Source: Spongilla lacustris (lineage: Eukaryota; Porifera; Demospongiae; Spongillida; Spongillidae). Taken from it: a stretch of DNA of 64,000 nt. The translations under genes and the position numbers were made by a program. The notes beneath the pieces were generated by a model that ran no database searches, was not told where the DNA came from, and saw only the letters and a program-made list of their open reading frames with translations. The stretch spans positions 12,819,540 to 12,883,539 of the forward strand of contig OX442416.1 of NCBI GenBank assembly GCA_949361645.1. The letters run 5' to 3'. Below, piece by piece: positions 21,401 to 30,400 of this stretch; the first letter of the stretch is position 1; the number at the start of each line of letters is the position of its first letter.

Positions 21401-24400
21401 TACATGTACCTGACAGTGCAGTACACGCAAATACATGTACACCTGTAGGTACATGTAGGATAACTGGCATAACCTTGTGCTGCCTCATAACGCTATGCAT
21501 TCCATGGACAAGTTCAAAACACAAACTGTAAAACAGATCATCCTGATCGAAGACAAGAGGCTATTTTTACTGCCATAACCAATGATGTATTGGAAAACGC
21601 ATGTAAACAAACTGCACTAGCTCACTTTTGCTTGTACATGTATGCACTTTTGCTCTCCAACCGTTGCTCTTACACGCTACCTACCTGGCCACTGTACCTC
21701 CCCCATCTGGGTCCCCAGCCCCATCTGGGTCCCCATCATGCATCTATACTAGTTGATGGATAACAGTTTGCCCAAAAGGGTCAGGTGGCAGCCTGTTTGA
21801 ATGGCCATTAGCATTGGCTCTGTACTTATTATAGTGCTCTGTCATGTTGGTGTGCATTACATGTACATTGTATCCATCCTTTGTTGTCATGGATATCATT
21901 GGAATGATCTTTATGTTTGTATGCTGGGACCCTTGGCTCTCAGTGGTTAGTCCTACTGTGGCCCCCTCTTCCTGCCCTGCCCCTTCTAACACTGGCCCCA
22001 CCCCTCTTGTTGATTTTTTCCAACTTTGTTACATTAAAGACATTTCTGGTACATGGTGTGATATGGCTTCCTCCTTAGGATGGATATTCTGCACTCATAT
22101 GGGCATCAGCATATGGTCATGTAGAGTGTGTTAAAGTACTGTTGGATAGGGGTGCCCAGGCCAACCTCCAGAATAAGGTGAGTACAGTTCCAGACCAGAC
22201 CAATGTCTGTTGCTGACATGTTTCCTTGTGTGATGAGGGGACTATGAGGGTGGAGTGTGGTTGTCAGATGTTGTTTGATACATGTATAGTGGCTGTATGC
22301 CCTTGTAAGGTGTTATCCAGGAGGGGGAGGGGCATTTCTCATTATTTAAATCATGGTATGAGGAAAGTTGGTAGACCAGAGGAGCAGACCAATGTAAACT
22401 GTAACACTAGGTCTTGATTAGCCGGGTACCCAGTTCTATTTCCTTTGTACTTTAACATAGTAGTGTATACTGATGTATGTGTACATGTACATGCAAGGGA
22501 GCATTAGTAGCTAATTTATGCTAGCAATACATATGTATTGTAATTGAGGGGGGAGGGGATCACCATAGCCTGTGGAGGGAGGGGGTGATGGCCTCCAGGG
22601 CCTGGGGCTGCCTATGGTAGGGAGTCCAAGGAGATGTACATGTAGGACCTTATCTTAAGGGTGCAGGTATCTACATACATGTACATGTGTGTATTGCAGC
22701 AAATGGCTGGAAGGATGAGGCATAGGCAGTCAAACTGCTGACCCTACCTGACAGGGAAAAGGGATATAGGCATGGTGACATGGCCATTAGCATTGGCTCT
22801 GTACTTATTATAGTGCTCTGTCATGTTGGTGTGCATTACATGTACATTGTATCCATCCTTTGTTGTCATGGATATCATTGGAATGATCTTTATGTTTGTA
22901 TGCTGGGACCCTGGCTAGGCTCTCAGTGGTTAGTCCTACTATGGCCCCCTCTTCCTGCCCCGCCCCTTCTAACACTGGCCCCACCCCTCTTGTTGATTTT
23001 TTCCAACTTTGTTACATTAAAGACATTTCTGGTACATGGTGTGATATGGCTTCCTCCGTACAGGATGGAGTTACTGCACTCATGGCGGCATCAGTAGCTG
23101 GTCATGTTGAGTGTGTTAAAGTACTGTTGGATAGGGGTGCCCAGGCCAACCTCCAGAATAAGGTGAGTACAGTTCCAGACCAGACCAATGTCTGTTGCTG
23201 ACATGTTTCCTTGTGTGATGAGGGGACTATGAGGGTGGAGTGTGGTTGTCAGATGTTGTTTGATACATGTACAGTGGCTGTATGCCCTTGTAAGGTGTTA
23301 TCCAGGAGGGGGAGGGGCATTTCTCATTATTTAAATCATGGTATGAGGAAAGTTGGTAGACCAGAGGAGCAGACCAATGTAAACTGTAACACTAGGTCTT
23401 GATTAGCCGGGTACCCAGTTCTATTTCCTTTGTACTTTAACATAGTAGTGTATACTGATGTATGTGTACATGTACATGCAAGGGAGCATTAGTAGCTAAT
23501 TTATGCTAGCAATACATATGTATTGTAATTGAGGGGGGAGGGGATCACCATAGCCTGTGGAGGGAGGGGGTGATGGCCTCCAGGGCCTGGGGCTGCCTAT
23601 GGTAGGGAGTCCAAGGAGATGTACATGTAGGACCTTATCTTAAGGGTGCAGGTATCTACATACATGTACATGTGTGTATTGCAGCAAATGGCTGGAAGGA
23701 TGAGGCATAGGCAGTCAAACTGCTGACCCTACCTGACAGGGAAAAGGGATATAGGCATGGTGACATGGCCATTAGCATTGGCTCTGTACTTATTATAGTG
23801 CTCTGTCATGTTGGTGTGCATTACATGTACATTGTATCCATCCTTTGTTGTCATGGATATCATTGGAATGATCTTTATGTTTGTATGCTGGGACCCTGGC
23901 TAGGCTCTCAGTGGTTAGTCCTACTATGGCCCCCTGTTCCTGCCCCGCCCCTTCTAACACTGGCCCCACCCCTCTTGTTGATTTTTTCCAACTTTGTTAC
24001 ATTAAAGACATTTCTGGTACATGGTGTGATATGGCTTCCTCCGTACAGGATGGAGTTACTGCACTCATATGGGCATCAGCATATGGTCATGTAGAGTGTG
24101 TTAAAGTACTGTTGGATAGGGGTGCCCAGGCCAACCTCCAGAATAAGGTGAGTACAGTTCCAGACCAGACCAATGTCTGTTGCTGACATGTTTCCTTGTG
24201 TGATGAGGGGACTATGAGGGTGGAGTGTGGTTGTCAGATGTTGTTTGATACATGTACAGTGGCTGTATGCCCTTGTAAGGTGTTATCCAGGAGGGGGAGG
24301 GGCATTTCTCATTATTTAAATCATGGTATGAGGAAAGTTGGTAGACCAGAGGAGCAGACCAATGTAAACTGTAACACTAGGTCTTGATTAGCCGGGTACC

Positions 24401-27400: not shown

Positions 27401-30400
27401 TTCCTGCCCCGCCCCTTCTAACACTGGCCCCACCCCTCTTGTTGATTTTTTCCAACTTTGTTACATTAAAGACATTTCTGGTACATGGTGTGATATGGCT
27501 TCCTCCTTAGGATGGATATTCTGCACTCATATGGGCATCAGCATATGGTCATGTAGAGTGTGTTAAAGTACTGTTGGATAAGGGTGCCCAGGCCAACCTC
27601 CAGGATAAGGTGAGTACAGTTCCAGACCAGACCAATGTTTGTTGCTGACATGTTTCCTTGTGTGATGAGGGGACAATGAGGGTGGAGTGTGGTTGTCAGA
27701 TGTTGTTTGATATAGTGGGCTGTATGCCCTTATAAGGTGTTATTGTGGAGAGGGAGGGGCATCTCAATCATGGTACATGCTCTTCCATGCAACCTACATG
27801 TACCTGGCCACCGTACCTCCCCATCTGGGTCTGCTCCTCCATCTGCATGGGTGCCCCAGCTTTTCTTTCGGCCGATTCAACAAGCGGGGGGGGGGGGGGG
27901 GGGGGGGGCTGTCTGCTTTCGGCCAATTCAATCAGTGAGGTGTCCATTCAATCACTGATAGGGTGCTATCCTCTTTCAGTGCGCATGTACATGTACATGT
28001 AAACTTTTATAACAAGGGGGGGGGGGGGGCACCATTCAGTCCCGAAGGGGGGGGGGGCCATGCCCCCCCCCCCCCCCCCCCCCCTGGGTCCCTCCCCCAT
28101 CTGGGTCCCCATCATGCATCTATACTAGTTGATGGATAACAGTTTGCCCAAAAGGGTCAGGTGGCAGCCTGGTGACATGGTGTGCCCATCAGGCTAGGTC
28201 TGGGGCCAAGGTAGTGCTGGCTGCCCTTGGGTGTGACCAGATGTGCCACACCATGAGGTGGTCATGGGGTTAAAGTGGTGCGCTCAGAATAGCACCATTT
28301 ATATATTCATTTGCATGCCCATGCCCTATCTAAGCAGGGGGTTGCACATTCGCCCTTTATCAGAACATTAAACGTTGCTTACTCCCTAAACAAATCACTT
28401 AATATGGCCACAGTTCACACTTGAGTTATCCTGCAGTTGCCTGGCTCTGTCATGTTGTTGCTGTCTTTGGTTCATGTCTCTCAGGGGTACCCAGCCTGCC
28501 CCCTCCCCCCACCTACCTCTTCTACCCTGTCCCCTATCTACCTTGGCCACTCCCCCTCCTCCCATGGTCCCACCCTAATTTGCTATGGCCCCTCCCCCAC
28601 CTACCATGCCCCATAATATCATGGTCACTTTCCTTCATACATGTACCATGGCCACACCCCTCTTGTTGATACTGTTCCACTTGTCTGTGTTACATTTCTG
28701 GTACATGGTGTGATATGGCTTCCTCCTTAGGATGGATATACTGCACTCATGATGGCATCAGTAGCTGGTCATGTTGAGTGTGTTAAAGTACTGTTGGATA
28801 GGGGTGCCCAGGCCAACGTCCAGGATAAGGTGAGTACAGTTCCAGACCAGACCAATGTCTGTTGCTGACATGTTTCCTTGTGTGATGAGGGGACTAGATC
28901 TACTATTGCCTTTATGGTGTTGGAGCATGTGAGCCACAATGAACTACATGTGTGCATGTACATGATGGTGTGCTGTGGATGGTATGTATATCCAAGTGTT
29001 AACTAAACATACAAAGCAGCTCTGTGGCTAGGAACAGTCCTGATATGGTGTGCCCAAAGTCATAGTGTCACCAAATATGGTATTACATGTACCCACATGT
29101 ACATGTACCTGTCACCATATAATAGTATTAAATGTACATTGGCCCCATGTACATGTACATGTTGTACATGTATCTTGAGGCTTGTAGTACATGTAGATTT
29201 CCATATTCAAATCAACACACACAAAACCCTAAAATCCTAAACATGGTCATGTTTCTGTGTAGGCACAGCTCATTGATAGGCAGTACATGGGCCATCAGCA
29301 TTATGCTGGTGGGTCATTCCAAAAACGTTTTTACCACCCTAGTGTCTAATCTGCATTATATTAGCCATATTTAATACCTACTTAGAAACATACACTTTCA
29401 CAATATAATTGTATACCCTATCACTCTTTGTTTACCAGATACACTGCCTTGAATAATTAATTTTCCCCCCTTTTTTGTTTGCTTTGAATGACTACTGCTT
29501 CCCCCTTACAGTGAGCATGCTCATTTTTTGTGCACAAGAGGAAGGGTTTTATGGGAACACACCCTTGAGCATGCAAATGCACATTGTTTGTCATAAGGGG
29601 GAGTGGCAATACATTCATTTAGCATAAGGTTGTAACATTGCCAAGAATAAGAAAAAAACTAGGACACCATTCTTTGTTTGCTAGATAGCTGCCAACCGTT
29701 AACAGCTTTCTGTGAATTCAACTTTTTGGGATACTGATCACATGGTCTGGGATTTTGATTTTAAGTCAGGCTGCCATATTTAATCTCCCTTTTGCATTCA
29801 TATCAATTGCATTCTTGAATTGCTTTTATGAAAACAGAACAACCACAAAGTCACAGAACAATCAAAACAGACACTTCACAGTTTACTCAACCTTGCTGTT
29901 AGTTTCTCACAGGCTTCCTGCATCTCTACTTTGTATGTACATATCTTCCTGTAGCAGTTTGCTGTAACACAAGTCAGAACATCTGACAGGTCTACATCCA
30001 GCATGTCCTCCTGCTCGGGGTACACAAAGGAGGGTGCTGGGATGCAGGGGTGTAAAAATGTAACAGTTACGCAACATTCAGCCTCATGCTCAGCAACAAA
30101 ACAGCCAAGCCAGCATTGTTCGTTGTACACAACAGTTGCATAACCACCAATTGTTATGGCTAGTGATGGTCAAACGACTGCACTGCATACATCAACCCGT
30201 TCTCTTCTTGACACCCTACTGGAAGAAAACAGCTTCACCCCTCAGAAATAGGGAAGTTTTTGAGTGCTGCTGCTCTAATTCTTTGGTTTCAAGGTCATGT
30301 TCTTTGCTTTCCAAAAACTGAAAGTCCAATACCTTTGATGTTGTTCAGAGCAAATTGGTATAGATCTTGAGCTGACAGAATGTGGTCCTTTGTAGGCATG

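Follow-up and report, generated by a model that had tools for sequence, protein, structure and literature searches.

Single-exon ankyrin cassettes of a Roco-like gene in Spongilla lacustris recombine and probably diversify at their binding face

The 64,000-nt stretch of the sponge Spongilla lacustris analysed here (assembly GCA_949361645.1, contig OX442416.1, positions 12,819,540 to 12,883,539; the window) contained a 28 kb gene with the domain order ANK-ROC-COR-Death, flanked by two sister genes of the same exon order (genes 1 and 3). Its ankyrin repeats were encoded as an array of homologous single-exon cassettes that bear a signature of selection and of recombination, followed by a conserved signalling part. 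We consider it probable that this is a Roco gene in which diversifying selection acts on the ankyrin binding face while the cassettes recombine. The sequence-level case for the array was well supported, whereas the function is predicted; the gene looks like an internal alarm receptor. The genome searched comprised 248.6 Mb in 51 contigs, with the window on contig C2. Eight-digit coordinates refer to this contig and shorter ones to the window.

Nine ankyrin cassettes were present where the initial annotation had placed them, each preceded by AG (Table 1). The exact 985-bp spacing of 22079, 23064, 24049 and 25034 was confirmed. Intact cassettes were 99 nt long, in phase 0 and bordered by AG (5') and GTGAGT (3'). 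The claim that all exons shared this length and phase held for them but failed for 26599, the sole exception among the nine, which was identical in exon sequence to 23064 and had lost its GT donor by deletion (AATAAG/GGTGGAG). Since no GT follows it, it cannot count as an ordinary 99-nt exon, and it is probably skipped or dead. The first exon list was correct for the nine cassettes and incomplete otherwise, lacking the caps at 18184 and 32119, the linker at 31753, the truncated copy at 19125 and a frame break in COR. Truncated cassettes at window position 19125, C2:12889568 and C2:12770630 kept the AG acceptor and ended after about 9–10 codons.

Exons and introns of the array had diverged unequally. 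The four 985-nt units differed at 15 variable sites, ten of them in exon nucleotides 7–45 and five in the 886-nt intron. Between 23064 and 24049, 7/99 exon positions differed, all within exon nucleotides 21–45, with 1/300 differences upstream and 0/300 downstream; the near-identical introns and the seven clustered exon differences described earlier were thereby reproduced. Across the 14 core cassettes found in gene 1 and in the window gene, several pairs likewise combined near-identical flanks with differing exons (12774654 versus 12778045: exon 12/99, flanks 3/298 and 6/290). Among 49 cassettes from the clusters read, 34 pairs had both flanks within 5%, at least 60 shared 12-mers per flank having been demanded at the start. 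Eleven independent pairs were picked on flank distance alone, with each cassette used once. They differed at 78/6482 flank (1.2%), 6.3/255 synonymous (2.5%) and 49.7/834 nonsynonymous positions (6.0%). The difference between nonsynonymous and flank change was significant (Fisher's test, p = 3e-16), that between synonymous and flank change was not (p = 0.14), and 8/11 pairs had at least three nonsynonymous differences. The signal was replicated at C2 8.7–9.1 Mb and on C13. At the C2 loci between 8 and 9 Mb, most pairs had dissimilar introns and were uninformative, close ones being found only within L033/L035/L038 and L034/L036. Copies with altered starts (12771153, 12901746) and truncated copies (12770630, 12838664, 12889568) were excluded from the pair and codon-base counts, as were L053:3355, L055:1866, L055:3739, both L032 exons and L030 (a duplicate of L050:5026). 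L009 was counted in the pair comparison and omitted from the codon-base counts.

Nonsynonymous differences were concentrated at codons 3, 8, 11 and 12, and also occurred at codons 1, 4, 7, 24 and 32. The residues first named as variable (3, 4, 7, 8, 11 and 12) were thus borne out, and residues 1, 24 and 32 vary too. In the family of the window (family A; 26 cassettes, 23 distinct exons), codons 3, 8, 11 and 12 contained 46, 48 and 3 minor bases of 92 at the first, second and third codon base, compared with 25, 20 and 30 of 667 in the other 29 codons. The smaller families were less uniform (family B: 11, 8 and 0 of 24 in variable codons, 8, 9 and 15 of 174 elsewhere; family C: 12, 14 and 6 of 36, and 22, 14 and 44 of 261; family D on C13: 9, 9 and 2 of 28, and 9, 8 and 2 of 203). 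Stop codons were absent from the 48 exons counted, fragments and frameshifted copies having been excluded beforehand.

A local mutator, retroelement- or deaminase-like and acting on the 5' half of the exon, would explain why change in the 985-bp units was dense and limited to about 40 nt. Such a process would be blind to codon phase, yet third bases inside the patch stood at background in family A, the counted exons were free of stops and counterpart exons were unchanged. We regard it as extremely unlikely, and local hypermutation was rejected on the third bases. A diversity-generating retroelement, weighed only as a mutator, is argued against by the phase lock. Neutral concerted evolution is a more serious alternative, in which the introns were made alike by unequal crossing over and the exons kept older differences at positions where the ankyrin fold permits them. 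The variable sites are the non-consensus sites of the repeat, three counterpart pairs have changed little since duplication, conversions inside identical introns would leave no visible trace, and the exon synonymous rate was about twice that of the flanks, albeit not significantly. Old tolerated variation should, however, bring synonymous change, at odds with the third bases of family A, and nonsynonymous change ran at about five times the intron rate. Because third bases of the variable codons in family A, flanked by freely changing bases, changed no more than third bases elsewhere, neither a mutator nor old neutral variation fits the codon phase; the neutral explanation appears unlikely to us.

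The diversifying selection proposed at the outset was supported by nonsynonymous change that exceeded intron change and was phase-locked, in other clusters and some proteins from other assemblies as well. The base counts argue for positive selection at positions that, judging from homologues, would lie on the ligand side. In contrast, purifying selection acts on the ROC-COR exon: over its first 330 codons, the ratio of the nonsynonymous to the synonymous proportion of differences (pN/pS) was 0.50, 0.68 and 0.28 in the three sister-gene pairs, which indicates that constraint has not been relaxed across the entire gene. The P-loop exon gave pN/pS values of 2.20, 0.62 and 0.47, and the Death exon, in one pair, nine nonsynonymous and three synonymous differences (pN 0.040, pS 0.046).

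Cassettes spread as exon-intron units and recombine with one another. The identical exons 23064 and 26599 lay in upstream introns that differed at 128/266 aligned bases, and 12773669 and 12779258 differed at 2/99 exon positions but at 125/269 and 106/247 positions of their flanks. Identical exons next to dissimilar upstream introns, near-identical introns around differing exons and a cassette number that varies between sister genes support recombination between cassettes, in line with the gene conversion suggested initially, and the mosaic combinations of variable blocks were recovered when cassettes were compared. Four gametes were observed in 107/224 site pairs, a count that recurrent selected change can inflate. 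Between cap and linker, gene 1 had seven cassettes, the window gene eight and gene 3 four, including one altered-start copy in gene 1 and the donor-less copy in the window; these numbers indicate that whole units were gained and lost.

Alternative splicing of the array, by Dscam-like choice or by subsets, could instead be its main function. Intact cassettes of 99 nt in phase 0 leave every subset in frame, and brown-algal LRR-ROCO arrays are reported as alternatively spliced in the portion of the source consulted (PMC11378527). The linker and second cap exons were, however, retained in 3/3 genes (the window gene and its two sisters), and the Ephydatia muelleri model P0135, as read by eye, unites the cap, several repeats, the linker, the second cap and also ROC within a single protein. 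Both observations make inclusion of all repeats the simpler default, and we doubt that splicing is the main function.

Gene 1 had its first exon at 12768175 and ROC-COR at 12791250, and gave no Death match in the stretch examined. Gene 3 had a cap at 12888624, ROC-COR at 12907052 and Death at 12909122, and gave no first-exon match in the stretch examined. Extra cap exons were found at 12815385 and 12884284. A 30-nt exon pattern with up to three mismatches had at least 82 matches in the genome and none for the reversed-pattern control, so that the exon family exceeds chance. A second pattern, in which the variable codons were free, had at least 104 matches and one control match and added clusters on C3 and C13; COR-A matches numbered at least 80 (E ≤ 0.001). 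Further ankyrin exon clusters with variation at these codons were seen at L054 and L055 (C13:423001-432500 and 486501-496500) and at C3:664506-790642. Ten C2 exons (7.66–9.23 and 21.07 Mb) were selected for having ACTGCACTTAT in common; their codons 3–13 differed only at 3, 7, 8 and 12 and every difference altered the amino acid, the fixed codons being partly held constant by the search pattern. Pattern-found fragments (up to three mismatches) were then hand-picked (10, 27 and 10 rows), so that constancy of the fixed codons is partly by choice and only the free codons are informative.

The splice order read from the sequence was MATSNSNRRHSECQE, N-terminal cap, cassettes, 27-residue linker, second cap, one cassette, last repeat with the ROC P-loop, 12-residue exon and ROC-COR exon. 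With cassette 26599 omitted, the joined model comprised 804 residues without a stop. Pfam detected strong ankyrin repeats in this model and a Death domain above its cut-off in the last exon; matches to EAV_GP5 and DNMT3 inside the array were treated as chance hits and disregarded. Exon 34435 encodes GDTGSGKST, which we take to be the ROC P-loop motif. An AlphaFold2 model of the ROC-COR relative P0001, a protein from another assembly that was modelled without the P-loop exon, had a pLDDT (predicted local distance difference test) score of 84, and its best Foldseek match in the PDB was Roco 3dpu (E 1.5e-13), followed by LRRK2 and LRRK1. The window gene is accordingly placed, as a prediction from this fold, among the Roco (ROC-COR) proteins, and the ROC and Death domains noted initially alongside the cassettes were both recovered. 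The Pfam scan of the 804-residue model found no NACHT or NB-ARC and no leucine-rich repeats; it found no protein kinase domain either, although the model may miss an upstream exon.

An assembly artefact or a dead gene cluster might also produce such an array, given the near-identical units, the frame break and lost donor of the window gene, the missing Death match of gene 1 and the missing first-exon match of gene 3. The ROC-COR regions of genes 1 and 3 and of P0001 were nevertheless open across the site of the break, the counted exons lacked stops, and units of the same kind occurred in other assemblies. For this last reason a pure artefact was rejected, and we judge this explanation as a whole very unlikely.

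The best full-length relatives were gene models from Ephydatia muelleri, a freshwater sponge (Em0010g18a: 61% of the query aligned at 77% identity). A strict repeat regular expression gave zero in each of nine proteins, mostly Ephydatia models, because the pattern was too strict, and their repeats were read by eye instead. A search with the 104-residue frame across the intron and cassette 24049 returned 13 proteins, 12 of which were compared with a 168-kb stretch at the best match of each; these 12 may represent alleles, other individuals or additional copies. The contrast between cassette and flank was clear in 2/12 proteins. P0127 and cassette 32668 differed at 1/77 intron-coded residues and 5/33 cassette residues, and P0122 and 12894921 at 1/68 and 7/33. 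Several comparisons were short or weak. P0126 and P0128 gave 2/31 and 4/33 each, P0130 3/31 and 5/33, and P0123 5/31 and 4/33; four proteins were more distant (P0124: 4/20 and 7/33; P0125: 5/24 and 12/33; P0129: 4/18 and 8/33; P0132: 11/20 and 8/33).

Several results weigh against a gene under diversifying selection and recombination. Three of the 11 pairs, formed by cassettes at corresponding places in gene 1 and the window gene, had 0, 1 and 0 nonsynonymous differences with 13/1792 in their flanks, which shows that change was not steady. Recombination also breaks the independence assumed by simple divergence tests. In family D, third bases of the variable codons exceeded background (2/28 versus 2/203). 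The cap exons were rich in nonsynonymous change as well (nonsynonymous to synonymous 8:1, 6:1 and 10:2 for the first cap; 5:0 in 3/3 pairs for the second), so that the signal is not confined to the cassettes and the caps may belong to the diversified surface as well. Among the proteins of other assemblies, several had little or no contrast: P0121 differed at 4/63 intron-coded and 3/33 cassette residues, and P0131 was identical (0/28 and 0/33). The Pfam matches to Roc (26.8 bits, cut-off 27) and COR-A (20.9, cut-off 35.3) were both sub-threshold. Finally, the COR frame of the window gene is interrupted near 42304, at a short run of C that is one base longer in genes 1 and 3; the interruption may be a true lesion or an error of the assembly. 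One cassette of this copy is donor-less, and the window copy may be unable to yield a full protein; the family pattern is independent of that copy.

Table 1. Exons and cassettes of the ANK-ROC-COR-Death gene (window coordinates)
Feature	Position	Strand	Remarks
First coding exon (probable), MATSNSNRRHSECQE	15373..15417	+	GT donor, phase 0; same peptide 66.7 kb upstream in gene 1
N-terminal capping ankyrin exon, 99 nt	18184..18282	+	AG/GT borders, phase 0; copies in sister genes
Truncated cassette copy, codons 1–9 only	19125..19151	+	nhmmer match, E 0.0013
Ankyrin cassette NGDTALIMASGLGHVECVKVLLDRGAQANLQAK	19292..19390	+	
Ankyrin cassette DGYSALIWASAY...	22079..22177	+	Opens 985-bp series
Ankyrin cassette DGVTALMAASVA...	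23064..23162	+	
Ankyrin cassette DGVTALIWASAY...	24049..24147	+	
Ankyrin cassette DGVTALMAASLG...	25034..25132	+	Identical to 12774654 in gene 1
Ankyrin cassette, donor-less	26599..26697	+	GT lost by deletion
Ankyrin cassette DGYSALIWASAY...	27511..27609	+	Identical to 12778045 in gene 1
Ankyrin cassette DGYTALMMASVA...	28731..28829	+	1 base different from 12779258 in gene 1
Linker exon, 81 nt, EELKEAIRNGNVEEVMRLVQLDDSTAK	31753..31833	+	AG/GT borders, phase 0; also in genes 1 and 3
Second capping ankyrin exon, 99 nt	32119..32217	+	Also found in genes 1 and 3
Ankyrin cassette DGYTALIWASQL...	32668..32766	+	Residues 3, 8, 11, 12 and 24 differ in the relative P0127 (another assembly)
Last ankyrin repeat and presumed ROC P-loop GDTGSGKST	34435..34689	+	
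Short ROC exon AIKYCSQLTFDK	37336..37371	+	
ROC and COR-A coding exon, as far as frame break	41299..42303	+	
Remainder of COR (COR-B), different frame	42304..42894	+	C run 1 base shorter than in genes 1 and 3
Linker exon	43178..43249	+	Read from sequence
Last exon: Death domain, stop	43443..43735	+	Pfam Death 28.3 bits, cut-off 22.6

Two introns of the gene contained further repeats. An inverted repeat (29311-31631; 1157 nt, 99% complementary, 7-nt centre), probably a fold-back element, lay before the linker exon, and a 19-bp minisatellite of about 130 copies (34812-37271) separated the P-loop exon from the next ROC exon. One 38-bp minisatellite unit occurred at two sites (2934-4631, about 44 copies; 53902-54244, about nine copies). 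A TRIM-like gene at 11403-13574 consisted of two adjacent open frames with RING, B-box, filamin repeat and NHL repeats.

Once translated, the cassettes would stack as one ankyrin solenoid with the variable residues on its ligand-binding face. A variable ligand, whether microbial, symbiont or non-self, might be bound there, with the ROC-COR GTPase switch relaying the signal to the Death domain. Selection would favour new binding faces in single cassettes as well as in arrays, and new combinations would arise by unequal recombination or gene conversion. The positions likely to make contact vary much more than the surrounding DNA, which suggests that the animal diversifies the recognition of this receptor. 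A broader idea, which we put forward as speculative and improbable at present, is that each individual sponge possesses its own large repertoire of ankyrin binders inside the cell, built from exon cassettes, coupled to ROC-COR and Death, serving non-self or symbiont discrimination and perhaps diversified further by splicing or somatic recombination. Under our main reading, the sponge gene would be an animal counterpart of the brown-algal and fungal signalling switches with modular repeats, its binding face being under strong diversifying selection. It offers candidate genes for the discrimination of self, symbionts and microbes by sponges, and the many copies of one unit with near-identical introns make selection and recombination directly measurable. 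No earlier report of sponge ankyrin-ROCO cassettes was found among the titles and abstract openings listed by searches of open-access literature.

DAPK1, an animal kinase, combines ANK, ROC-COR and Death in the domain order of the sponge gene. The sponge repeats differ in being hypervariable and variable in number, and no kinase was detected in the 804-residue model. We did not assign the gene to the DAPK family, as no kinase was found, or to the NLRs, as no NACHT or NB-ARC was found. Sponge positions 3, 11 and 12 presumably correspond to DARPin library positions 5, 13 and 14, with position 8 varying additionally in the sponge. DARPins are designed rather than natural ankyrin binders and, according to the portion of the source used, bind through randomised residues of the concave face (PMC8229355). 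Podospora ANK/TPR/WD NLRs have near-identical repeats of varying number with five positively selected ankyrin positions, all but one of them concave, as described in the excerpt considered (Dyrka et al. 2014, PMC4986451). To the extent of that excerpt, they resemble the sponge gene in their near-identical ankyrin repeats, variable repeat number and positive selection at few positions; they are fungal, with a NACHT/NB-ARC switch and repeats within one coding region, whereas the sponge gene has ROC-COR and one repeat per exon between near-identical introns. Brown-algal LRR-ROCO genes were reportedly also the subject of Zambounis et al. in 2012. In the passages of the source considered, these genes (LRR, leucine-rich repeat) devote a separate 72-bp exon in phase 2 to each repeat, shuffle their exons and carry four concave positions under positive selection (Teng et al. 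2024, PMC11378527). On that partial basis they are the closest system to the sponge gene, with which they share one repeat per equal-length exon before ROC-COR, shuffling and few selected ligand-side positions. The algal genes combine 72-bp phase-2 LRR exons with LRR-ROC-COR only, as far as those passages go, whereas the sponge gene is an animal one that joins 99-nt phase-0 ankyrin exons to ROC-COR and a Death domain.

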